Of a stretch of DNA of 64,000 bases, positions 49,845 through 60,040 are shown piece by piece. Positions within the stretch are counted from its first letter, which is position 1. Each line of letters starts with the position of its first letter. Under the pieces are notes generated by a model. It did no database searches and was not told where the DNA came from. It saw nothing but the letters and a program-made list of their open reading frames with translations. Origin of the DNA: Sphingopyxis sp. USTB-05 (lineage in GTDB: Bacteria > Pseudomonadota > Alphaproteobacteria > Sphingomonadales > Sphingomonadaceae); NCBI RefSeq assembly GCF_023822045.1, contig NZ_CP084712.1, positions 930,001-994,000 on the forward strand, given 5' to 3'. Both the position numbers and the translations under genes were made by a program.

Positions 49845-50060
49845 ATGCACCTGCCTGCCCCCTTTCTCACCGATCGCGACGCGGTCGAGGATGCTCATGC
49901 GCTGATCAGCATGCACGGAGAAGAAGCAGGCTTCGCCGCCGCAGCACGGGCAGAGCAATATCGCGTCCTCGGCAACCACGTCCATTTTGCGCGCTGGCGC
50001 CAGATCGAGCGGCTGATCACCTATTTGTCGGTCGAGGATATTCTCGACACAGTGCACTAA
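49845..50060 (+). CDS. Small alpha-helical protein, DUF6961-like (tentative)
   Basis: 71 residues. 'VEDAHALISMHGEEAGFAAAARAEQYRVLGNHVHFARWRQIERLI' has the HG...A...A......G....W.. spacing of a small sphingomonad family (DUF6961). AGGAA lies before ATG 49845. It is alone in the 389-base gap between the sugar dehydrogenase and argC and is convergent with argC. No function known. Confidence 0.55.
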   Translation: MHLPAPFLTDRDAVEDAHALISMHGEEAGFAAAARAEQYRVLGNHVHFARWRQIERLITYLSVEDILDTVH

Positions 50061-50063
50061 GGT

Positions 50064-50981
50064 TTAAACTCGCAAGCCCGCAGTCTCAGGCAGCCCAGCC
50101 ATGATGTTCAGATTCTGGACGCATGCACCGCTCGCGCCCTTGCCCAGATTGTCGAGCCGCGCAACGAGACGTAGCTGACGGCCGAAAGAGTCGGAAAAGA
50201 GCGTCAACTCCATCCGGTCGGTCGCTTCGTCCTTCTGACTGAGCAGCAATTCGCTCTCGTCACCGCGCCGAACGCTGACCAGCGCCGATCCCTCGAAATG
50301 GGCGGCAATGGCATTGAATGCGGCATCGGCGGTCGGCGCGTCGAAACTCAGCGGCACCTCGACCAGCATCCCACGATACACGGGGACGACTGCCGGAGCG
50401 AACAATGGCGGATGCGTCAGGCCTGCGCCCCGCTGCATTTCGGGCACATGCTTGTGGTTCAATGACAGGCCATAGCTGCGAAACCCGATATCGGGTTCGG
50501 CTTCGAACCGTGCGATCAGCTCCTTGCCGCCGCCGGAATAACCCGACACCGCATTGACGCTGAGCCGCGCGTCGGCCGGGAGGATACCCGCTGCGACCAG
50601 TGGCGCGACGAGAGCGAGGAAACCCGTCGGATAGCAGCCCGGATTGCTCACGCGTGTCGAGGCGGCGATCGCCTCGCGCTGCCCCGCACTCAGTTCGGGA
50701 AAGCCATAGGCCCAACTCGGGGCGACGCGGTGCGCGGTCGAGGCGTCGATGACCATTGTGCTTTCGTTGCGGATCATCGCGACCGCCTCGATCGCCGCGG
50801 CGTCGGGCAGGCAGAGGATTACGAAATCGGCGCTGTTAAGCGCCTCGGCCCGGCGATTGGCGTCCTTGCGTTCCGCGTCGGGCAGGGTGATCAGTGCAAA
50901 TTCGCTCCGACCGGCAAGCCGCTCGGCAATTTCCAGGCCCGTCGTTCCCGCCGCGCCGTCGATGAAGACCGTCTGTGTCAT
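50064..50981 (-). CDS. argC: N-acetyl-gamma-glutamyl-phosphate reductase, type 2
   Basis: 305 residues, the short type-2 ArgC. Cofactor loop 'DGAAGTTGLEIAERL' at residue ~8, catalytic Cys116 in SNPGCYPTG, and the His in 'LNHKHVPEMQ'. It makes N-acetylglutamate-5-semialdehyde in arginine synthesis. It is co-directional with the NlpC/P60 peptidase and aminopeptidase genes, five bases after the former. Confidence 0.95.
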   Translation of the reverse strand: MTQTVFIDGAAGTTGLEIAERLAGRSEFALITLPDAERKDANRRAEALNSADFVILCLPDAAAIEAVAMIRNESTMVIDASTAHRVAPSWAYGFPELSAGQREAIAASTRVSNPGCYPTGFLALVAPLVAAGILPADARLSVNAVSGYSGGGKELIARFEAEPDIGFRSYGLSLNHKHVPEMQRGAGLTHPPLFAPAVVPVYRGMLVEVPLSFDAPTADAAFNAIAAHFEGSALVSVRRGDESELLLSQKDEATDRMELTLFSDSFGRQLRLVARLDNLGKGASGACVQNLNIMAGLPETAGLRV

Positions 50982-50986
50982 GATTT

Positions 50987-51931
50987 TTACCGCAGTCGTT
51001 TATAGCCGGAAACCGGCACATCATTCCCTTTCGCCGCCGAACGCTCGATTACGTCGGCCAGCGGTTCGCTGTTCACCGACATCCATCGTCGGCTGGCATG
51101 GATGATGGTCTGGCTGTCGGCCATGATGCCGACATGCCCCGGGAAGAAGACGAGATCGCCGCGTGCGAGCGCCGCCGGATCGACATCCTTGTCGGCTCCC
51201 AGCGACGCAAGCTGCAAGTCGCTGTCGCGTGGCAGTTGTACGCCCGCGGCCGCCCAAACAAGCTGGACGAGACCCGAGCAATCGATCCCCTTGGTGGTAC
51301 GGCCGCCCCAGACATAGGGTGTACCGATCATCTGCTCGGCGAGTTCGGCCGGATCACCGTTCTCGGTGCCGACCTCGACAAGCGACGCGAGGGGCAGATA
51401 ACCGTGCGAGGTCGCGAGCCATTCGCCCTCGGGCTCGCCCATCACTAGGGCGCCGCGCGGCAATACCCCGGGACCGCCGCTCGCCGCATCGGGCGCGCTG
51501 TGCAGCATGGCCTCGATCATCGCGACACGGTGTGTCGGTGCGATCGGCGCGGCGAGCGCTTCGGCGGCGAGATAGCCGACATAATGGTCCGCAAGGCAAT
51601 ATCCCCACGCCCAGCCACCGGTCAGGTCGAGCAAGGCGAAGCCTTCGCCGAACAGCAACTCGCTCGTCTGGTCGGCATCGACCGAAGGCGACGCACGCAG
51701 GGAAGCCGCGGGCAGCACGCCGCTGCGCATCATCGGTGCGGCATAATGCGGCGCGAAATGGGTTCCGGCGACGGCGATATCGGCAAGGTCGGGACGGATC
51801 GCGACGACGCGCGGATCGAAGCTTTGCGACGTGCCGGTCAGGCCAAAGCGATCGCGGCCCGCGCCGGCGGCGCCGGGACGCCCCATCCGCACGCGGTTTG
51901 CCGCTGAATTATCGCCACTTTCTGCTGTCAC
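50987..51931 (-). CDS. NlpC/P60 (C40) cell-wall peptidase with SH3-like domain
   Basis: 314 residues. The C-terminal NlpC/P60 domain contains GTPYVWGGRTTKGIDCSGLV (Cys218) and the His in 'FFPGHVGIMADSQTIIHA'. The N-terminal ~130 residues contain an SH3-like segment (TGGWAWGYCLADHYVGYLAA). It cleaves peptidoglycan peptides of the gamma-D-Glu-diamino acid type. GTG 51931 has AGGA six bases upstream. No signal peptide is visible, so it may act on recycled muropeptides. Confidence 0.88.
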   Translation of the reverse strand: MTAESGDNSAANRVRMGRPGAAGAGRDRFGLTGTSQSFDPRVVAIRPDLADIAVAGTHFAPHYAAPMMRSGVLPAASLRASPSVDADQTSELLFGEGFALLDLTGGWAWGYCLADHYVGYLAAEALAAPIAPTHRVAMIEAMLHSAPDAASGGPGVLPRGALVMGEPEGEWLATSHGYLPLASLVEVGTENGDPAELAEQMIGTPYVWGGRTTKGIDCSGLVQLVWAAAGVQLPRDSDLQLASLGADKDVDPAALARGDLVFFPGHVGIMADSQTIIHASRRWMSVNSEPLADVIERSAAKGNDVPVSGYKRLR

Positions 51932-52016
51932 TTGCCGTCCTGTAAAAAGCTGGGTTCCGCGCGGGGCGGACAATCGCGCGCCATTAGACCAGCCGACCCC
52001 TCTTTATCAAGAATGT

Positions 52017-53420
52017 TCAGGTTTTTCCGCGGCGGTCGTAGCGTGCCTGCAGCATTGCCCAGGTGGCGCGGAGCCCCAGCGCGGCGCCGCCTTTCGGACG
52101 TCCGGGCTTTGCCGACGGGCGCCAGGCGAAGGTGTCGAGATGCGCCCATGCCACGCCGTCGGGGATGAAGCGTTTGAGAAACAGCGCGGCAGTGATCGAC
52201 CCGGCGAAGGGCGAACTGCCCGCATTGCCGAGATCGGCGATGTCGGTTTCGAGCAGGTCGGCATAGCCGTCCCACAGCGGCATCCGCCAAAGCGGGTCGT
52301 CGCGGTCCGTCCCCGCCGCGAGCATCGCATCGGCGAGCGCATCGTCGTTGGCGAACAGCGGCGGAAGGTCGGGACCAAGCGCGACGCGCGCCGCGCCGGT
52401 CAATGTCGCGAAATCGACGATCAATTCGGGTTTGGCTTCACCGGCCTTTGCCAGCGCGTCGCCGAGCACGAGCCGGCCCTCGGCATCGGTGTTGCCGATT
52501 TCGACCGTCAGACCCTTGCGGCTCTTCAGCACGTCGCCAGGGCGGAAGGCATCCGATGAAATCGCATTCTCGGCAGCGGCGACAAGGCAGTGCAATCGCA
52601 CCGGCAGGCCGCTAGCCATCACCAGTTCGGCAAGCGCGAGCACATGCGCCGCGCCGCCCATATCCTTCTTCATCAACCGCATGCCTGCCGCGGGCTTGAT
52701 GTCGAGTCCGCCGCTGTCGAAGCTGATCCCCTTGCCGACCAGTGCGACGCGCGGATGATCCTCCTTGCCCCATTCGATCTCGATCAGGCGCGGCGCGTGA
52801 TGCTTCGCCGCGGCGCGTCCGACCGCATGGATCATCGGATATCCCTGCTCCAGCGCCTCACCCTTGGTCACGCTGAACTTGCCGCCATGCGCCTTCGCAA
52901 TGCGTTCGGCGGCCTTTTCGATCGCCGCAGGCCCCATGTCGGCGGCGGGCGTGTTGACGAGGTCGCGGACGAGCGCGGTCGCACGCATCTCGGCGACCAA
53001 GGGTGCGATGGCGCCCACGTCGCTGGTCAGCAGCACGCGCGGCCCCTTGGTGGGCGGGTTCGATTTATAGTCGTCGAAGCGATATTGCGAGCTCATCCAG
53101 CCGAACAGCGCCTTGCCGGGTTGCTGGCCTTCGACGCGATAACGGCCTTCGGGAAGGATCTGTCCCAGCTTGGCAAGGCACCAGGCCGACAGTTTCTGAG
53201 TGTTCGCAACCGTCGTGAGGACAGCCCATTTGTCGGGATCGTCGCCCGGCAGAATGGCATGGACGAATACGTCGGGTTTGAAACCGACCGCCGCAAGGTG
53301 TGCGCGTTCGCGTGCGCTGCGGCCTTTCAGCCATTCGTCATAGCCCTTTTTGTCGACAAGGTGGATCGGGCGCGCGTCCTGTCCCTTGTCGGGCTGGATC
53401 AGATCGGAATAGTCGGTCAT
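52017..53420 (-). CDS. Leucyl aminopeptidase family protein (M17)
   Basis: 467 residues. The C-terminal metal site is intact: 'VGKGISFDSGGLDIKPAAGMRLMKKDMGGAAH' (Lys, Asp) and NTDAEGRLVLGDAL (Asp, Glu and Arg). The N-terminal ~140 residues are a divergent macro-like domain. It removes N-terminal residues from peptides in the cytoplasm. It overlaps by two bases a plus-strand frame at 53419 that precedes the DUF3298 gene. Confidence 0.93.
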   Translation of the reverse strand: MTDYSDLIQPDKGQDARPIHLVDKKGYDEWLKGRSARERAHLAAVGFKPDVFVHAILPGDDPDKWAVLTTVANTQKLSAWCLAKLGQILPEGRYRVEGQQPGKALFGWMSSQYRFDDYKSNPPTKGPRVLLTSDVGAIAPLVAEMRATALVRDLVNTPAADMGPAAIEKAAERIAKAHGGKFSVTKGEALEQGYPMIHAVGRAAAKHHAPRLIEIEWGKEDHPRVALVGKGISFDSGGLDIKPAAGMRLMKKDMGGAAHVLALAELVMASGLPVRLHCLVAAAENAISSDAFRPGDVLKSRKGLTVEIGNTDAEGRLVLGDALAKAGEAKPELIVDFATLTGAARVALGPDLPPLFANDDALADAMLAAGTDRDDPLWRMPLWDGYADLLETDIADLGNAGSSPFAGSITAALFLKRFIPDGVAWAHLDTFAWRPSAKPGRPKGGAALGLRATWAMLQARYDRRGKT

Positions 53421-53475
53421 GCACGCGGTGCTAGGCCGCTCGGGATATTTTGTCGATTCCCGGCGTTATGTCGGA

Positions 53476-54309
53476 ATGACGACTGAAATATTCTGGCGAA
53501 ATGCCACTTCCGTTCTTGCCGGCGCGCTGTTGCTGGCCGGGTGTTCCGATGACAAGCCGACGAAGGCGGACAAGGTGGCCGCGGCGTCGGTGACCGGCGC
53601 GCCGCCACAGGGGGCGGCCGACGAAGCGGTGAAGGGCGCGCCCGCGTCGAACGTTGCCGAAAAGACCGACCTGATCGATTTCGGTTATGCCTATCCCAGG
53701 GAAGCCGCTCAAATCCCCGAACTCGCAAAGGCGCTGGATGGCGACCGGTCGGTAAAGCGCCAGGCGTTGGTTGCAGCGGCGGAGCGCGACAGGGCGGCGG
53801 CAGAGAAGGGCGGATTCCCCTATCGCGCGCACAGCCATCGCCAGATTTGGCAGCGCGTGACCAGCACGCCGCGCTTCCTCAGCCTTTCGGCAGAGATCGA
53901 GACCTATGCCGGGGGCGCCCACGGTATGCAGGGCTTCGATACGCTGATCTGGGACCGCAACCGGCGCAAGCAGATGAAGCCGCTCGACCTGTTCCAGAGC
54001 GGCGAAGCGTTCGACGCGGCGATCCGCGAGCCGTTCTGTGCGGCGATCAAGCGCGCGAAGGCCGCGAAAGGGATAGTGGCCGACGAGGCGCCCGACAGCG
54101 TCTTCGCCAAATGCCCGCCCGCGTCGGCGCAGACGGTGTGGCTCGGCTCGTCGGATGGGCGTTACCTCGACCGCATGACGATCGCCATCGCGCCTTATGA
54201 AATCGGCCCCTATGCCGAGGGCAGCTACAAGATCAACGTCCCGGTCACCGGCGCTCTGGTCAAAGTCGTGAAGGAGGAGTTCGCGCGCGATTTTCTTCCA
54301 GTCAACTGA
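53476..54309 (+). CDS. DUF4163/DUF3298 (RsiV-like) lipoprotein
   Basis: 277 residues with a lipoprotein signal (LAGALLLAGC, Cys ~22), a disordered Ala/Pro linker, and the DUF4163-DUF3298 fold that begins at about 60 ('FGYAYPREAAQIPEL', 'EIETYAGGAHGMQGFDTLIWD', 'YEIGPYAEGSYKINVP'). RsiV and PdaC are relatives; a lysozyme- or muropeptide-binding role is only inferred. Its last 31 codons and 18 bases after the stop are duplicated at 56409-56522, where an island has been inserted behind the gene. The peptide encoded by both copies is identical. Confidence 0.85.
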   Translation: MTTEIFWRNATSVLAGALLLAGCSDDKPTKADKVAAASVTGAPPQGAADEAVKGAPASNVAEKTDLIDFGYAYPREAAQIPELAKALDGDRSVKRQALVAAAERDRAAAEKGGFPYRAHSHRQIWQRVTSTPRFLSLSAEIETYAGGAHGMQGFDTLIWDRNRRKQMKPLDLFQSGEAFDAAIREPFCAAIKRAKAAKGIVADEAPDSVFAKCPPASAQTVWLGSSDGRYLDRMTIAIAPYEIGPYAEGSYKINVPVTGALVKVVKEEFARDFLPVN

Positions 54310-54327
54310 GGATGAGCGCGCGGCAAA
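54215..54327 (+). repeat. Left copy of a ~113-bp direct repeat (3' end of the DUF3298 gene)
   Basis: Matches 56409-56522 with two mismatches, both synonymous (a Lys AAA/AAG and an Ala GCG/GCC codon). It marks the left border of the 2.1-kb island. Confidence 0.95.
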
Positions 54328-54337
54328 TTTCAGCATC

Positions 54338-54393
54338 TTCTAAGGTTGGCGACGATACAGGTTTAGGGGTCAATTAAAATGTCACCGTCATTC
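54338..54393. mobile_element. Degenerate right end of the 158-bp MITE-like element (copy 0)
   Basis: GGCGACGATACAGGTTTAGG and TGTCACCGTCATTC align with the right end of the two full copies. The left part is missing. It adjoins the left copy of the direct repeat. Confidence 0.65.
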
Positions 54394-54419
54394 GTGTAAT
54401 TCGTAATTGCTGCGCGATA

Positions 54420-55298
54420 CTAAATTGGAATTTTCCTTAGCTCTTCAACTCTACTGCGGATGTTGTCTGGTATCACCACGTCCGGCATATAGGCATAAGC
54501 GCGCAGCATCACTTCCTCTGGACTTAACCCGCTTTCCCCCTCACGCCATTCAAAGGTGCGGAGCCATTCAAGCGCGGTCGTCGCCAAGCCGGTGCCAATC
54601 CATCGTTCCATATTGCGCCGCATATGCCCTCGCGCTCGCACACGGGCAGGGGACTTGCGATCATGCAATTGCGCCGGATCATCGGCCAGCATCAGGCCGA
54701 TATTGATGGATGCGCCTTTGCGGTTCTCATCACTTGGCGTCGTTGTTTCCAGCAATTCAGGAATCGAATCCCACGCCGAAAGGGACAGCAAGGATATCGC
54801 ATCCCAAATACCGTGAAGAATGGGAACATCGTCCATCGGTTTGGACAATATGTCCCTTACCTTGGCCTGATCCACTTTGCCTGTCCTGAACCACGCGTCA
54901 TGCATCAGCACGAAATTGGCGCCGAGCCATGCTTCGGGGCGGATCTCGAAATGTCGAGAGAACACCTTGCCAACATCCTTGTAATATTGTCGACGAAGCT
55001 GCTTTTCGGTCAATGGCTTATCATAAGGAAGCCATTGTTCGCGTTCCAGACTCGTTTTTGCCCAACCTACAACAATTGAATTTGCATCATGGTGAATATT
55101 TAAATCTGCTCCGACTACATAGGATTCGGAAATCTTATTATATGCAGATCGCGCAAAATTCCACGCCATTTTTTCCATTTCGTCTACATATACTGGGCCT
55201 TGTTCTATTATTCTTAGCAATCCGGATAAGTCGCTATTCAAAAATGACTGCCTCGCTGATGCGTCAAGAAACTGCTTTGGGCCTTTGCCATATGCCAT
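54420..55298 (-). CDS. Unknown protein in the MITE-bounded island
   Basis: 292 residues, no signal peptide or membrane segment, mostly helical by eye, with many Trp and Met residues ('EKMAWNFARSAYNKISESYV', 'RPEAWLGANFVLMHDAWFRTGK', 'HGIWDAISLLSLSAWDSIPELL', 'MERWIGTGLATTALEWLRTFEW'). Codon use and composition are clearly less GC-rich than outside the island, a sign of transfer. Its ATG lies 10 bases after the stop of a truncated tail, as for an immunity gene behind a toxin gene. By position it may be an immunity protein, but I recognise no family. Confidence 0.7.
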   Translation of the reverse strand: MAYGKGPKQFLDASARQSFLNSDLSGLLRIIEQGPVYVDEMEKMAWNFARSAYNKISESYVVGADLNIHHDANSIVVGWAKTSLEREQWLPYDKPLTEKQLRRQYYKDVGKVFSRHFEIRPEAWLGANFVLMHDAWFRTGKVDQAKVRDILSKPMDDVPILHGIWDAISLLSLSAWDSIPELLETTTPSDENRKGASINIGLMLADDPAQLHDRKSPARVRARGHMRRNMERWIGTGLATTALEWLRTFEWREGESGLSPEEVMLRAYAYMPDVVIPDNIRSRVEELRKIPI

Positions 55299-55308
55299 AA
55301 TTATGGAA

Positions 55309-55395
55309 TCACCTTAGCGTTCTAGGAGGTTTTGGCGGTTTCGGGGGATCTGGCACCAATTTCCCGCGTTCAATCTTCATCGGATCGACCATCTT
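55309..55395 (-). pseudogene. 5'-truncated coding tail abutting MITE copy 1
   Basis: An open frame running from the MITE edge to TGA 55309-55311 encodes about 28 residues ending KLVPDPPKPPKPPRTLR. The upstream frame is closed inside the MITE by TAA at 55399-55401. An ATG at 55392 permits a 27-residue peptide, but a remnant of a larger gene cut by the element is more likely, perhaps the C terminus of a toxin. Confidence 0.5.
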
Positions 55396-55553
55396 GAATT
55401 ACGGTGACAGTTTACCTAATCCCCAAATCGCCGTTCGGATTTGGTCAATAATTTTTTACATGACGAGGGATGCTGAGAAGAATGAAACGAGAAAATCGGC
55501 TAAAATTGATGGCGATTCAGGTTTAGGGATTAAGTGAAACGCTACCATAATTA
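55396..55553. mobile_element. 158-bp MITE-like element, copy 1
   Basis: Same length and internal order as copy 2 (56252-56409): left end GAATTACGGTGACAGTTTAC, an internal hairpin CCAAATC...GATTTGG, then TTTTTTACATGACG. The right end is decayed. No open frame of note inside. Confidence 0.85.
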
Positions 55554-55564
55554 CGTAATTTGGC

Positions 55565-56131
55565 CTAGCTTAAGCTGGCTCGATATGCGGCGAGGCGCGT
55601 TCGCAACGATTCGGCCTCGGTGCGTAGTTTGGAAGCGCGGTCAAGATTTCCGATATGTTCAGCCTTCAACGCGTCCTGTTCTTTGCGGGGTATCGCCTTC
55701 TCGATTTTGTATTCCCTTATATCCATCGGGACATATGCTTGTTCGAGTTCTTCGTCATTTAAATCGCTGACACCGCGCATAATAACGCCGCTCCAAAAGT
55801 CTTCATCAGGAACATAAGCATATTGGAAACTGATTTTCCCCGCCTCCGTCAATGTGACGGTCACGTGGTCCCAAGGCTCGCGCTCAAAGATATCGAGCGA
55901 TTTCATTTTCAAGAGATCGTTGGCGATCATTTCGTCCATATCGCCTGGCGCTTTACCCCAGTCGAAATGTCCAGGGCTGCCGTCGCGATTGCGCCAATGC
56001 GCACCTCGTTGAGAATGCATTTCATAGAGAGCGGCTTCGAAATAAATCTCATCCGCGCCTTCGGGCATTATCGACCAAAGTTTTTGGCCAATGGATTGTG
56101 TTAATTCCTCAAATTTTTCTTGGTCACTCAT
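55565..56131 (-). CDS. YezG/DUF600-like immunity protein
   Basis: 188 residues. The N-terminal helix 'QEKFEELTQSIGQKLWSIMPEGADEIYFEAALYEM' and the mid-block 'REPWDHVTVTLTEAGKISFQYAYV' match the YezG/DUF600 family, antitoxins of polymorphic (LXG/YeeF-type) toxins. A charged C-terminal extension of ~50 residues follows (RKEQDALKAEHIGNLDRASKLRTEAESLRTRL). AGGA is eight bases from ATG 56131; ATG 56137 overlaps the preceding stop (ATGA) but is only two bases from AGGA. Composition is AT-richer than the genome. No complete toxin is adjacent. Confidence 0.75.
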   Translation of the reverse strand: MSDQEKFEELTQSIGQKLWSIMPEGADEIYFEAALYEMHSQRGAHWRNRDGSPGHFDWGKAPGDMDEMIANDLLKMKSLDIFEREPWDHVTVTLTEAGKISFQYAYVPDEDFWSGVIMRGVSDLNDEELEQAYVPMDIREYKIEKAIPRKEQDALKAEHIGNLDRASKLRTEAESLRTRLAAYRASLS

Positions 56132-56133
56132 AA

Positions 56134-56251
56134 TCATTGTCCTGTGGGTGCATTTCTTATCGGCTGAGGTAGAGATGACTTTCCATTAATTGTTTCGTGG
56201 ACAACAAATCTAGTAGGTCTCTTTCCTGCATCATATTGTATTTCAACCCTA
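56134..56251 (-). pseudogene. 5'-truncated coding tail upstream of the YezG-like gene
   Basis: An open frame from the edge of MITE copy 2 to TGA 56134-56136 encodes 38 residues beginning RVEIQYDAGKRPTRFVVHE and ending RNAPTGQ. The frame is stopped inside the MITE (TAA at 56272-56274), and there is no start codon. The stop overlaps the YezG-like ATG 56137 as TGA/ATGA, the usual toxin-immunity spacing. It is best read as the C terminus of a toxin. Confidence 0.65.
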
Positions 56252-56409
56252 GAATTACGGTGACAGTTTACTTAACCCCCAAATCGCCGTTCGGATTTGG
56301 TCAAAAATTTTTTACATGACGCGGGATGCTGAGAAGAACGAAACGAGCAAATCGGCTAAAGTGGATGGCGATACAGATTTAGGGGTTAAGTAAACTGTCA
56401 CCGTAATTC
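56252..56409. mobile_element. 158-bp MITE-like element, copy 2 (intact)
   Basis: Perfect 28-bp terminal inverted repeats, starting GAATTACGGTGACAGTTTAC and ending in its complement ...CCGTAATTC. The interior holds CCAAATC-N6-GATTTGG and an AT-rich TTTTTTACATGAC run and no gene. The right end abuts the duplicated 3' end of the DUF3298 gene. Confidence 0.92.
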
Positions 56410-56522
56410 CGAGGGCAGCTACAAGATCAACGTCCCGGTCACCGGCGCTCTGGTCAAGGTCGTGAAGGAGGAGTTCGCCCGCGATTTTCTTCCAGTCAAC
56501 TGAGGATGAGCGCGCGGCAAAA
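56409..56522 (+). repeat. Right copy of the ~113-bp direct repeat
   Basis: Encodes the last 31 codons of the DUF3298 lipoprotein, without its 5' part, directly after MITE copy 2. It marks the right border of the island. Confidence 0.95.
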
Positions 56523-56615
56523 ACGCGCTAGGGGCCTCGGACGGTGTTGGCCCATAAAACTGGATTGTCGCCGCTGAATCCGCCATCCTCTCCCGGGCAG
56601 TAGGGGAGAGGGTGG

Positions 56616-57179
56616 ATGCGTCGATTTTATCGGATCGTTTCGGCTGCGGCGTTGCTGGCCGCACTCGGCGGATGCAGTTTTCAGACGGCACTGGACAAGA
56701 TGGTTTCGCCCGAGCGGCAGAAGGAGCTTGTCGCGATCGGCGAACGCTTCTGCACTGATCCCGTCAGCATGAAGAGCCAGTTGCACCCCGAAATCGCAAC
56801 CTCGGTCGAAGCTGCGGTGCCGGCGCTGCCGCGCGAATGCCCCGAAGGCAAAGCCACCTGGCAACTCGCTACCTATAATTGGAAGACCAACGTCACCCCC
56901 GGCCTGAAGGAGCAGCAGGAAGAGGCGGTGATTGTCGCAACGGGCAAGGGGAAATGGACGACCGTATCGCTGCGCTTCTATGCGCAGAATGATGCGCCGA
57001 TGCAGATCACCGAGTGGAATGTGCTGGGCAGCGCGACCAAACCGCCCGCGCTCCAATTCATCGAGCAATATGAGGCCGGGGTACGGGCGCTGCGGATCGG
57101 AGGTCCGATCGTGCTGCTCGCGATTGGCGGGCTTGTCTTCTGGCTGGTGCGGCGGCGGCGCGCAAAACGCGCCGCCTGA
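56616..57179 (+). CDS. Lipoprotein with C-terminal membrane segment, unknown
   Basis: 187 residues. Signal with lipobox LAALGGC (Cys ~20). The soluble part (~25-150) has an alpha+beta look ('VAIGERFCTDPVSMKSQLHPE', 'TVSLRFYAQNDAPMQITEWNVLG'). A membrane segment (IGGPIVLLAIGGLVFWLV) and a basic tail end the protein, so both ends may be membrane-attached. It starts 94 bases after the island. Function unknown. Confidence 0.68.
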   Translation: MRRFYRIVSAAALLAALGGCSFQTALDKMVSPERQKELVAIGERFCTDPVSMKSQLHPEIATSVEAAVPALPRECPEGKATWQLATYNWKTNVTPGLKEQQEEAVIVATGKGKWTTVSLRFYAQNDAPMQITEWNVLGSATKPPALQFIEQYEAGVRALRIGGPIVLLAIGGLVFWLVRRRRAKRAA

Positions 57180-57182
57180 CGG

Positions 57183-58721
57183 CTATTCCGCGGCTTCGAG
57201 TTCGGCGGGCGCGGTCGCGGCCGCCGCACGCGCATTGCTGAACGTCAGCACGCCGTCGGCAATCGCGCCGGTGCGCATGTCGATGCGGTCCTGCACATAA
57301 TTCTGGCTGAGCCGCCAGGGCAGCGCGACCGTGCTCTTCGGCATGATGTGCAGCGAGCGCTGGATATAGCCCGACGAGAAGTCGAAGACATTTTCTTCCT
57401 CAAGGCTCGACGGGTCGGCGAGGGCGGGCGTCGCGACGGTGGTGCGCGTGTCGCGCATATGGTTGAGCACGCGGCAGACATATTCCGACACGATGTCGGC
57501 GCGCAGTGTCCAGCTTGCGTTGAGATAGCCGAACACGGCCGAGAAGTTCGGCACGTTCGAGAACATGCACGCCTTGTAATAGAAATGATCGTGCCAATCG
57601 ACCGGGGCGCCATCGACCCGCACGGGTATCTTGCCGGCGACGGCGAGCTTCAGCCCAGTGGCGGTCACGATGATGTCGGCATCGAGATGTTTGCCGGATT
57701 TGAGCTGGATACCGGTCGCATCGAATTTCTCGATATGATCGGTCACGACCGATGCCCGGTCTGCCTTCATCGCTTCGAAGAAATCGGCATCGGGAACGAG
57801 GCAGAGGCGCTGGTCCCAAGGGTTGTAGGGCGGGGTGAAAGCTTTGGCGTCATATCGGTCGCCAAGGCTTGCCTGCAGTTTCTTGGTCAGGAATTCCTTG
57901 ACCTTCTCGGGCTTCTCGCGCGCGCGACGGAACGCGATATCTTGAAGGCGGACGTTCTTGAACCGCGTGATCTTGTACGCGAGCCCCTCGGGCAGGAATT
58001 TGCGGAGGAAGTTCGCGAAGCCGTCCTTCGCCGGCCGGATAAAATACCAGGTCGGAGTGCGCTGAAGCATCGTGACGTGGGCGGCTTCCTTCATCGAAGG
58101 GACGATCGTCACCGCGGTTGCGCCCGATCCGATCACGACGACCTTTTTGTCCTTATAGTCGAGATCTTTCGGCCAGAACTGCGGATGGATGATCTGACCC
58201 TTGAAATCCTCGCGGCCCGCGAATTGCGCATCGAAGGGCTCGTCATAGTCGTAATAGCCCGACCCGAGATAAAGCCAGCGCGCGGTTGTGGTCGACGTCG
58301 CGCCCTTGCTGTCCTCCATCGTCACCGTCCAGCGCGCGGCGGCGCTGTCCCAGTCGGCACCGACGACCTTGCTGTCGAAACGAATGCGCTCGCGAATATG
58401 GCGTTCGTCGACGATGCGGTTGAGATATTCGAGGATCGACGGGCCGTCGGCGATCGACTTTTCGTGCTTCCATGGTTCGAAGACGAAACCGAGCGTGTGC
58501 ATGTCGCTGTCAGATCGGATACCGGGATAGCGGAAGAGGTCCCAGGTACCGCCAAGCTGTTCGCGACGCTCGACGAGGGCAAAGCTGCGGTCGGGCGAGT
58601 TCATCTGCAAATGCACCGCCATGCCGATGCCCGAAATTCCCGCGCCGACGATCAGCACATCCTGATCGACCGGTGCAGCCTTCGCGTCTGCGGGGCGTTC
58701 CGTCGTCGCCGTGCCTGCCAT
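57183..58721 (-). CDS. Flavin-containing monooxygenase (Baeyer-Villiger type)
   Basis: 512 residues. FAD site GAGISGIG (residues ~22-29), NADP site GSGATA near 185, and 'FKGQIIHPQFWPKDLDYKDKK' near 150-170 in place of the Baeyer-Villiger fingerprint FxGxxxHxxxWP. It inserts oxygen next to a ketone or oxidises a soft nucleophile, using NADPH. GGGAG precedes ATG 58721. Upstream codons to 58778 are not conserved-looking. No partner is required. Substrate unknown. Confidence 0.9.
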   Translation of the reverse strand: MAGTATTERPADAKAAPVDQDVLIVGAGISGIGMAVHLQMNSPDRSFALVERREQLGGTWDLFRYPGIRSDSDMHTLGFVFEPWKHEKSIADGPSILEYLNRIVDERHIRERIRFDSKVVGADWDSAAARWTVTMEDSKGATSTTTARWLYLGSGYYDYDEPFDAQFAGREDFKGQIIHPQFWPKDLDYKDKKVVVIGSGATAVTIVPSMKEAAHVTMLQRTPTWYFIRPAKDGFANFLRKFLPEGLAYKITRFKNVRLQDIAFRRAREKPEKVKEFLTKKLQASLGDRYDAKAFTPPYNPWDQRLCLVPDADFFEAMKADRASVVTDHIEKFDATGIQLKSGKHLDADIIVTATGLKLAVAGKIPVRVDGAPVDWHDHFYYKACMFSNVPNFSAVFGYLNASWTLRADIVSEYVCRVLNHMRDTRTTVATPALADPSSLEEENVFDFSSGYIQRSLHIMPKSTVALPWRLSQNYVQDRIDMRTGAIADGVLTFSNARAAAATAPAELEAAE

Positions 58722-58915
58722 AGTTTCGTCTCCCGATTGTCTTTGGCGCCAGCTTACGCACCGCGTTGCATTTTGCAATCGAATTGACAGCGATGAAAGT
58801 ATGGGTGCGGAGGGCCGCGTCCCTTGTCGCTGTCACATTATTGTCATAGGGGCGAAACCCAATTGTCACCATTCAGCCATGATGTCGCATCAACTATAGG
58901 AAAGGATTGATCTTC

Positions 58916-60040
58916 ATGCGCCAGATCGCGGTTCTTCCCTATCGATTCGGCGGTCCTGCGCAGGATGGTCCGACCGAAATCCTGCTGATCACCTCGCGCG
59001 AGACGAAGCGTTGGGTGGTGCCGAAGGGCAATCCGCTGACGGGCATCACGCGTCACGCCGCCGCCGCGATCGAAGCGGAGGAGGAGGCGGGGGTGATCGG
59101 TGCTGTCTGCCCGACGCCGATCGGCAGCTATGAATATCGCAAGCGCCGGGCCAATGGCGCGTCGATCATGTATAATGTCGAAGTCTTCCCGCTCGCCGTG
59201 ACGAACGAACTCGACGACTGGAAAGAAATGGACGAACGCGACCGCAAATGGTTTTCGTTCCGCGACGCCGCGTCGGCCGTGGAAGAGCCCGATTTGCAGG
59301 CGCTGATCCGATCGTTCGGCGATGGCGGTTTTCGTGCCGTCGCCCAACCGCGGAGCGTCGCCCACAATGTAGCAGACAAGACAGGGGTTAGCTGGATGTT
59401 CGCATGGTTTCAGCGTTTGCTGCCGCGACAGGGAAATTTCTTTGAATTGTTCGAAAGCCACGCTGCGACGCTCGTCGCCGGTGCCAATGCCCTGTCGCGC
59501 ATGCTTCAGGGTGGCGAGGGCATGGCCGACCATGTTCAGGAAATCATCGAGCGTGAGCATGACGCCGACGCGATCACCCGTGAAGTGCTCCAGACCGTCC
59601 GCCGCACCTTCCTGACGCCTTTCGACCGCAGCGCGATCACCGACCTGATCGCCTCGATGGACGATGCGATCGACGAGATGCAGAAGACCGCAGGCGCCGT
59701 CGACCTGTACGACGTCACCGAATTCGAGCCCGAGATGCGCGACATTGGGGGCATTATTGTCGATGCGGCGCGTTTGACGGCGGAGGCGCTGCCGCTGCTC
59801 CGCAATATCGGCGCCAACGGTCCGCGCCTCCACGAACTGACCGAACGGTTGGTGCGCATGGAAGGCCATGCCGACGAAATCCATGCCGCCGGCCTCAAGC
59901 GCCTGTTCCGTGAGCATGGCGAGGCGAACCCGACGCGCTTCCTGATCGCACGCGAACTCTTCCGCCATCTGGAACGCGTCACCGACAGTTTCGAGGATGT
60001 TGCGAACGAAATCGACGGTCTCGTCATCGACCACGCATAA
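58916..60040 (+). CDS. Fusion of a Nudix hydrolase with a DUF47 (PhoU-like) Pit accessory protein
   Basis: 374 residues in one frame. Residues ~1-150 are a Nudix domain of the DIPP-like type: 'WVVPKGNPLTGITRHAAAAIEAEEEAGVIG'. The metal-binding EAEEEAG is intact, but the Arg of REUxEE is Ile. Residues 161-374 are a complete DUF47/PhoU-like domain starting 'MFAWFQRLLPRQGNFFELFE'. DUF47 proteins are usually independent partners of Pit phosphate transporters. An internal ATG (59396) preceded by AGGGG could give the DUF47 part alone. The codon just before it is TGG, one base from TGA. ATG 58916 is preferred over TTG 58907. The pit gene follows after 15 bases. Confidence 0.85.
   Translation: MRQIAVLPYRFGGPAQDGPTEILLITSRETKRWVVPKGNPLTGITRHAAAAIEAEEEAGVIGAVCPTPIGSYEYRKRRANGASIMYNVEVFPLAVTNELDDWKEMDERDRKWFSFRDAASAVEEPDLQALIRSFGDGGFRAVAQPRSVAHNVADKTGVSWMFAWFQRLLPRQGNFFELFESHAATLVAGANALSRMLQGGEGMADHVQEIIEREHDADAITREVLQTVRRTFLTPFDRSAITDLIASMDDAIDEMQKTAGAVDLYDVTEFEPEMRDIGGIIVDAARLTAEALPLLRNIGANGPRLHELTERLVRMEGHADEIHAAGLKRLFREHGEANPTRFLIARELFRHLERVTDSFEDVANEIDGLVIDHA

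Follow-up and report, generated by a model that had tools for sequence, protein, structure and literature searches.

The replacement of toxin cassettes and the spread of orphan immunity genes are usually put down to recombination, with no agent named. The sections of PMC3482391 that concern cassette replacement are consistent with such an unnamed agent. Transposons whose Y1/HUH transposase genes lie inside long terminal inverted repeats (TIRs) are a described group: these TIR-flanked RAYT relatives are named TIRYTs or TIRtrons in the part of PMC3733652 that deals with them, and correspond largely to subclass 2.1, which includes RAYT group 1, in the corresponding part of PMC6006769. Here we describe an island in a 64,000-nucleotide stretch of the genome of Sphingopyxis sp. 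USTB-05 (NZ_CP084712.1, positions 930,001 to 994,000; hereafter the window, to which positions refer unless otherwise stated), inserted behind a PdaC/DUF3298 gene and punctuated by miniature relatives of these transposons. With a probability of about 0.6, we read it as horizontally acquired DNA, an imported and pre-assembled fragment of a polymorphic-toxin/immunity array that is bounded by miniature TIRtron derivatives and has lost its toxin bodies; it would carry one, and probably two, immunity genes left from toxin systems.

Layout and arrival of the island

The island (54328-56405, 2.08 kb) has a G+C content of 47.3%, compared with 63.2% in the window, and the 2078-bp segment with the lowest G+C (47.5%, at a step of 100 bases) starts at 54301, in agreement with the AT-richness reported in an initial annotation made from the letters alone. 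It is edged by two copies, 97% identical, of a 116-bp segment that comprises the end of the PdaC/DUF3298 gene and its trailer. Between them lie, from left to right, an element remnant, a gene for a 292-aa protein, a first full element, the YezG-like gene and another full element. Repeat comparison and an open reading frame (ORF) map place this order, as the initial annotation gave it, to within a few bases, as follows:

53419 to 54309, plus strand: intact PdaC/DUF3298 lipoprotein-type gene, 296 aa, with its end duplicated (profile match; found in 75 of 80 genus genomes)
54212 to 54327, plus strand: 116-bp gene end, left (functional) copy (repeat comparison; bases as in relatives)
54335 to 54393, no strand: right-end remnant of the TIRtron-derived element, 59 bp (repeat comparison)
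54420 to 55298, minus strand: gene for a 292-aa putative immunity protein (its last 50 aa share 44% identity with a Rhizobium array protein)
55309 to 55398, minus strand: tail 1, a 29-codon open frame, candidate toxin 3' end (starts in the last bases of the element)
55393 to 55555, no strand: full miniature element 1, 163 bp (repeat comparison)
55565 to 56137, minus strand: 190-aa YezG-family gene, predicted immunity type (homology to annotated YezG immunity proteins)
56134 to 56247, minus strand: tail 2, a 37-codon open frame, candidate toxin 3' end (in frame with the TIR)
56249 to 56411, no strand: full miniature element 2, 163 bp (right half aligns to the start-proximal end of autonomous TIRYT elements)
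56406 to 56521, plus strand: 116-bp gene end, right (orphan) copy (repeat comparison)
56616 to 57179, plus strand: 187-aa gene (also follows the PdaC/DUF3298 gene at the empty site in G047)

Both island ORFs are read from the minus strand, and each precedes one of the full elements. The spacing is tight: 9 bp separate the YezG-type stop from element 1, and 26 bp separate the 292-aa gene from the remnant. Read on that strand, each unit would consist of an element, the 3' end of a lost toxin, an immunity-type gene and a further element. The flanking 296-aa gene, annotated initially as a DUF3298 lipoprotein gene, is present as described, with a label that shifts mainly to PdaC (profile E 6e-12), the DUF3298 profile scoring under its cut-off. 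A scan of 53000-58000 against Rfam gave no match.

The relative G047 represents the empty site, in which the PdaC/DUF3298 gene with a single gene end has the same 187-aa gene immediately behind it. At position 54214 the left copy of the gene end has the base of all 29 relatives compared, and at position 54285 that of 26 of the 29, with the right copy changed at both, while at position 54264 the relatives are variable; this is as expected if the left gene end stayed in use. Neither island protein was found in the 79 other genus genomes, and among 396 genomes of the order the 190-aa protein occurs in its own genome alone and the 292-aa protein has one weak match of 58 aa outside it. The island would have entered the intergenic space behind the PdaC/DUF3298 gene, leaving the duplicated gene end. 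The two gene-end copies differ at 3 of 116 bases (2.6%) and the two full elements by 12%, which suggests, if rates were similar, that the elements are older than the insertion and that the array arrived already assembled.

The duplicated gene end, with a functional copy restored on the left, is also what gene-end integrators produce, and the island could in principle be a small integrative element targeting the 3' end of the PdaC/DUF3298 gene, with the 116-bp repeats as its attachment duplication and the miniature elements as passengers. However, the right duplicate begins where element 2 ends, no integrase was recognised by eye among the island ORFs, and the matches listed for other genomes of the genus include no second one covering the gene end, which makes such an element very unlikely.

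The miniature elements, the tails and the two genes

Elements 1 and 2 are 163 bp each (the repeat had been noted initially, with a size of 158 bp that is too small), share 88% identity, point the same way and end in 34-nt TIRs that are 97% complementary in the right copy (element 2), which folds into one long hairpin (-41.2 kcal/mol, z -9.2). Element ends were matched in 26 of 80 genomes of the genus and, with two candidates scored per genome, in 36 of 396 genomes of the order, the own genome included in both counts; an exact 24-mer of the element end is present in 42 stretches across the genome collection, of which 20 carry sphingomonad labels and the other 22 come from other alpha-, beta- and gamma-proteobacteria. 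At all 11 loci that were selected for two ends ~700-800 bp apart, a RAYT-like transposase ORF with QRGN and CLMPNH[VI]H motifs lies between the ends (its frame is broken in L020), and the one TIR-flanked ORF tested matches the TnpA-REP structure 4ER8 (E 3e-4). The same terminal repeats that bound the island elements hence flank RAYT-like Y1 transposase genes elsewhere, as in TIRtrons/TIRYTs. Furthermore, positions 66-163 of the element, its right half, align with the start-proximal end of the TIR-flanked transposase elements, and its minus strand retains a decayed transposase start (FSRFARFVLLSIPRHV versus ARLPRFVLPGIPHHV), so that the 163-bp element is a deletion derivative and, judged by its sequence, an internally deleted TIRtron, that is, a RAYT-like, TIR-associated Y1/HUH transposon.

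The element resembles a miniature inverted-repeat transposable element (MITE) in having both TIRs, sequence derived from a full element and no intact transposase. The idea of an ordinary dispersed MITE family does not hold, since full copies in the own genome are confined to the island locus and no transposase relative was found there, in a search for the cognate transposase that had no positive control. A single TIR palindrome stands at genome positions 3213534-3213570 (L050), remote from the island. No exact TIR match was found in viral contigs, and the element was not found on plasmids. An identity of the hairpins as integron attC sites was considered and dropped, as conservation extends beyond any core site to AATTACGG/CCGTAATT.

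Both tails are frames that open at element borders. The frame of tail 2 stays open from the TIR (VNCHRNS...) as far as a TGA overlapping the ATG of the YezG-type gene as ATGA, and tail 1 opens in the last TIR bases and stops 10 nt before the next start. The tails may be the 3' ends of lost toxins, and are by themselves too short to prove anything. A match of tail 2 in Shinella (E 2) was set aside as noise, the region being unannotated, its frame soon broken and no YezG relative found near it.

The 190-aa protein aligns with three plasmid-encoded, YezG-annotated immunity proteins at 34-42% identity over ~130-145 residues (E 2e-27 to 3e-20), the match to WP_026438531 being 42% over 130 aa of its 143, most of that family member. 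By homology it is a YezG-family protein, with a predicted immunity-type function. The plasmid relatives (L133-L135, in Acinetobacter and Psychrobacter) have no annotated toxin, on plasmids whose annotation is incomplete; two of them lie among toxin-antitoxin genes and the third near mobilisation and fimbrial genes. Phages and viral contigs yielded no relative of this protein. For the 292-aa protein, no Pfam or NCBIfam match was obtained, and its sole plasmid match pairs its C-terminal 50 residues (44% identity) with a protein in a Rhizobium array that also holds a HINT-domain toxin and an Imm63 protein, a lead to an immunity function rather than proof of one. Neither island protein matched a solved structure, and their single-sequence structure models have a mean predicted local distance difference test (pLDDT) score of 43 and 41. 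Both genes would presumably be expressed and protective.

TIR ends at toxin and immunity loci

The search of other sphingomonads for the element near toxin or immunity genes, suggested by the initial annotation, yielded three parallel loci and a recurrence of ends of the element family at Rhs loci. At L009, L080 and L085 a long tail is cut exactly where an element of the same family ends, and a small gene comes after the tail. At L009 (Sphingorhabdus sp. Alg239-R122) the order begins with an Rhs-like gene (by eye), a small AT-rich gene and a TIRtron; a tail follows whose ~132 codons are open from within the TIR, then a further gene and a TIR. At L080 (genome G029), a LysM/YD-type gene and a small gene precede a TIRtron and a tail of ~217 codons, again open from within the TIR, behind which come a small ORF, an Imm70 gene and a TIR. 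At L085 (genome G048) toxin-type ORFs with small genes are followed by a TIRtron, a tail open from the TIR, a small gene and a TIR. These tails are called toxin ends by eye and from their position, and 'toxin-type' and 'immunity-type' are our own labels where no profile matched: in a Pfam scan of ten ORFs from the parallel loci, four matched (LysM twice, Imm70 and RHS repeat) and six, two tails among them, did not. In addition, small AT-rich genes come after Rhs genes or fragments at L164, L170 and L172, with TIRs no more than about 0.2 kb beyond them. Since TIRtron ends recur in this way at toxin/immunity loci of relatives, the toxin bodies of the island were probably severed at TIR borders, and probably before the island arrived.

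In a Novosphingobium metagenome-assembled genome (MAG; L037), an Rhs core fragment extends past DPTGL and breaks off at the first bases of a TIR-family hairpin, and four such hairpins lie within 2.4 kb (L037:779-3138) with mostly single small genes between them. A further run of TIR-family hairpins, also with mostly single small genes between them and with a HigBA-like pair (by eye), was observed in a gamma-proteobacterium (L049:765-6837). Both runs are cassette-like arrays outside the genus Sphingopyxis. Such arrays, the close bounding of co-oriented genes by a repeated hairpin in the island itself, the Rhs core ending at a TIR in L037 and the recurrence of TIRs at Rhs loci would all suit a working exchange system, in which TIRtron ends are recurrent break and join points that capture and move toxin/immunity cassettes, like rAID arrays or integrons. 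We consider this distinctly unlikely for the island, where the two elements are 12% different, where the search for a matching transposase, uncontrolled as it was, came back empty, and for which neither excision nor polymorphic copy number has been seen. Recombination between MITE copies, by which the initial annotation supposed that cassettes could be gained or lost, was not observed. Several dimers of the same TIR were also observed among small toxin-antitoxin-type genes (by eye) on a beta-proteobacterial MAG contig (L027).

A quantitative link between TIRs and Rhs genes was sought at 34 TIR clusters, merged by hand from matches in 25 other genomes of the genus. For at least five of them (in G010, G029, G033, G044 and G060) a listed Rhs match is no more than 5 kb away, where 0.2 would be expected (Poisson 2e-6, with Rhs counts merged by hand from the matches listed); an RHS-repeat ORF overlapping a TIR in G017 (L166) is outside this count. 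By comparison, Rhs is near 1 of 150 listed insertion sequence (IS) places by hand count (Fisher 9e-4 against 5/34), or, in Rhs-bearing genomes and among the matches listed, near 1 of 46 against 5 of 21 (P 0.01), the IS places sitting in few genomes. With nine independent Rhs queries, Rhs was found within 4 kb of 4/34 TIR clusters (a frame within 0.75 kb), compared with 0/36 random sites and 0/36 IS sites (pooled P 0.009) and with 2/42 stretches of the genome collection; the TIR regions in this test are longer than the control regions. However, seven of the 36 random draws (two in G020, one in G028, two in G029, one each in G032 and G067) had been replaced before the scan by hand-chosen round positions, on account of overlap with a TIR cluster, an Rhs gene or each other, and one IS place (G010), 4 kb from an Rhs gene and near a TIR cluster, had been left out. 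The replaced G029 pair lay at one Rhs gene and two other replaced draws held a TIR, so that dropping them favoured our reading. With the dropped controls restored, the comparison becomes 4/34 versus 3/73 (P 0.21), and the forward test alone is not significant.

Because of this weakening, and because one of the nine query loci (L258) itself holds TIR-like ends, the link was tested in reverse, from Rhs-core matches merged to 36 loci, 33 of which had not been fetched through a TIR, with a 24-mer at up to 6 mismatches. A TIR-like end lies within 4 kb at 6/33 of these loci and at 0/72 control loci (Fisher 7e-4), all six ends being within 1.7 kb of the Rhs core and one shuffle giving 0; restoring three TIR-bearing dropped draws (3/75) raises P to 0.02. 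Over all Rhs-core loci the count is 9/36, with P 2e-5, or 0.002 with the draws restored. The six sites (L265:9006, L272:6303, L275:4593, L276:5807, L288:6810-7230 and L295:5934-6002) carry degenerate or sister TIRs, several of ACGGTGACAGGTGCAATAACCCC type, which an earlier BLAST search had missed; they share ACGGTGACAG with the island TIR and often differ further in, as sister elements would. A TIR end was not seen within 4 kb of 27/36 Rhs-core loci, and no Rhs match is listed within 5 kb of 29/34 TIR clusters. With most Rhs loci and most TIR clusters lacking a partner, the link is one of enrichment and falls short of a rule.

The composition of TIR neighbourhoods was also surveyed with Pfam. 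Among the families listed for 130 ORFs near the 34 clusters (L079-L098, L163-L176) are Imm70, SMI1_KNR4 (below cut-off), RHS, GmrSD, SocA, MazE, PIN, ParD, Fic and a CAP12/Pycsar TIR domain, beside ordinary genes. The conflict families among those listed are N6_Mtase/Eco57I for 143 ORFs at 36 random sites, and AbiEii, DUF6088 and KAP_NTPase for 139 ORFs at 36 DDE_Tnp_1 sites. As the listings cover the best 25 families, and the controls less fully, this comparison is not counted as a test.

Several results weigh against a toxin-loss array, beginning with the P values after restoration of controls and the many unpartnered TIR clusters just described. No Rhs match was found in the own genome. The tails, at 29 and 37 codons, are by hand estimate not longer than chance allows, and searches returned no credible relative of either, so that the truncated tails proposed initially stand as open frames and as candidate toxin ends. 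The 190-aa protein scores below cut-off with both the Pfam YezG profile (18.6 versus 21.7 bits) and TIGR01741 of NCBIfam (18.1 versus 82.05), and the YezG-like label given to it at the outset is upheld by homology and missed by the profiles; the tie of the 292-aa protein to a toxin array, which profile and structure searches did not strengthen, is partial and weak. A promoter scan gave no site 5' of the YezG-type gene or in the element there, and a site count not above that of shuffles. Finally, to our knowledge a 116-bp direct duplication fits no product of Y1 transposition.

An alternative account is chance accumulation, in which elements landed in dispensable, AT-rich foreign DNA where a YezG gene and another, unrelated one happened to lie, and in which both tails are ordinary leaders. 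In its favour, the tails are short and have no relatives; many non-toxin genes also adjoin TIRtrons; islands generally gather such elements, gene G+C near TIRs being no different from that near IS (P 0.35); and the forward control test loses its significance as described. In contrast, the full copies in the own genome are all at the island, long tails cut by a TIR occur at three parallel loci, and TIR-like ends are found at 9/36 Rhs-core loci, as is Rhs near at least 5/34 TIR clusters. We regard chance accumulation as somewhat unlikely. The loss of toxin bodies at element borders, as initially proposed, is thus supported by comparison, through the parallel loci and the recurrence at Rhs loci, rather than by the island's own tails or its 292-aa protein. 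On the toxin-loss reading, what remains of the island would be passive immunity or a decaying relic, its transposase having been lost as well.

Comparison with known systems

The recurrence of a transposon family at toxin/immunity loci offers a concrete, testable agent of cassette replacement and orphan spread, and might provide a setting for RAYT-like proteins, the role of which is unsettled. That related bacteria carry the same element next to toxin genes hints at how immunity genes get cut loose and passed on. A more general proposal, unlikely as it is in this broad form, would make TIRYT (RAYT group 1) transposons a recurrent engine of polymorphic-toxin evolution in sphingomonads, the ends of which cut near the toxin/immunity border and free tail-plus-immunity cassettes, while miniatures spread strings of orphan immunity genes to other sites. 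No link of RAYTs or TIRYTs to polymorphic toxin/immunity loci was found in the titles and abstracts of open PubMed Central papers, subscription papers being outside that search, and the relevant parts of PMC3390384 treat RAYTs and bacteriocins in separate sections.

Compared with the TIRtrons/TIRYTs themselves, of which the relevant sections describe Y1/HUH transposase genes inside long TIRs, as in the island's element family, and repeats that also occur as dimers and clusters (PMC3733652; PMC6006769), the island holds transposase-less miniature copies only, and the GGGGWSAS motif of some TIRs is unmatched in its TIRs, the copies there being GGGGTTAA, GGGATTAA and GGGGTCAA. The same sections mention no toxin/immunity loci, and words beginning with 'rhs' are absent from the main text of PMC3733652. 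Like the island, the displaced orphan cassettes of polymorphic toxin loci comprise, in the account given in parts of PMC3482391, strings of immunity genes left after toxin replacement; unlike them, the island is bordered by transposon-derived elements and retains no delivery (Rhs) gene. The orphan immunity islet of the type VI secretion system (T6SS) and contact-dependent inhibition (CDI) in Salmonella Typhi likewise consists, as outlined in PMC7400221, largely of immunity genes without toxins, whereas the island has two genes only, with repeated elements between. The Bacteroidales rAID arrays, from their outline in PMC12247911, share with it co-oriented short orphan immunity genes and conserved intergenic motifs. 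They have a tyrosine recombinase (same source), none of which was recognised by eye among the ORFs of 50000-60000, not all of them profile-scanned, and the intergenic motif of the island is instead a decayed HUH transposon. If toxin evolution were indeed driven by TIRYTs, it would represent the HUH-transposon counterpart of the rAID arrays.

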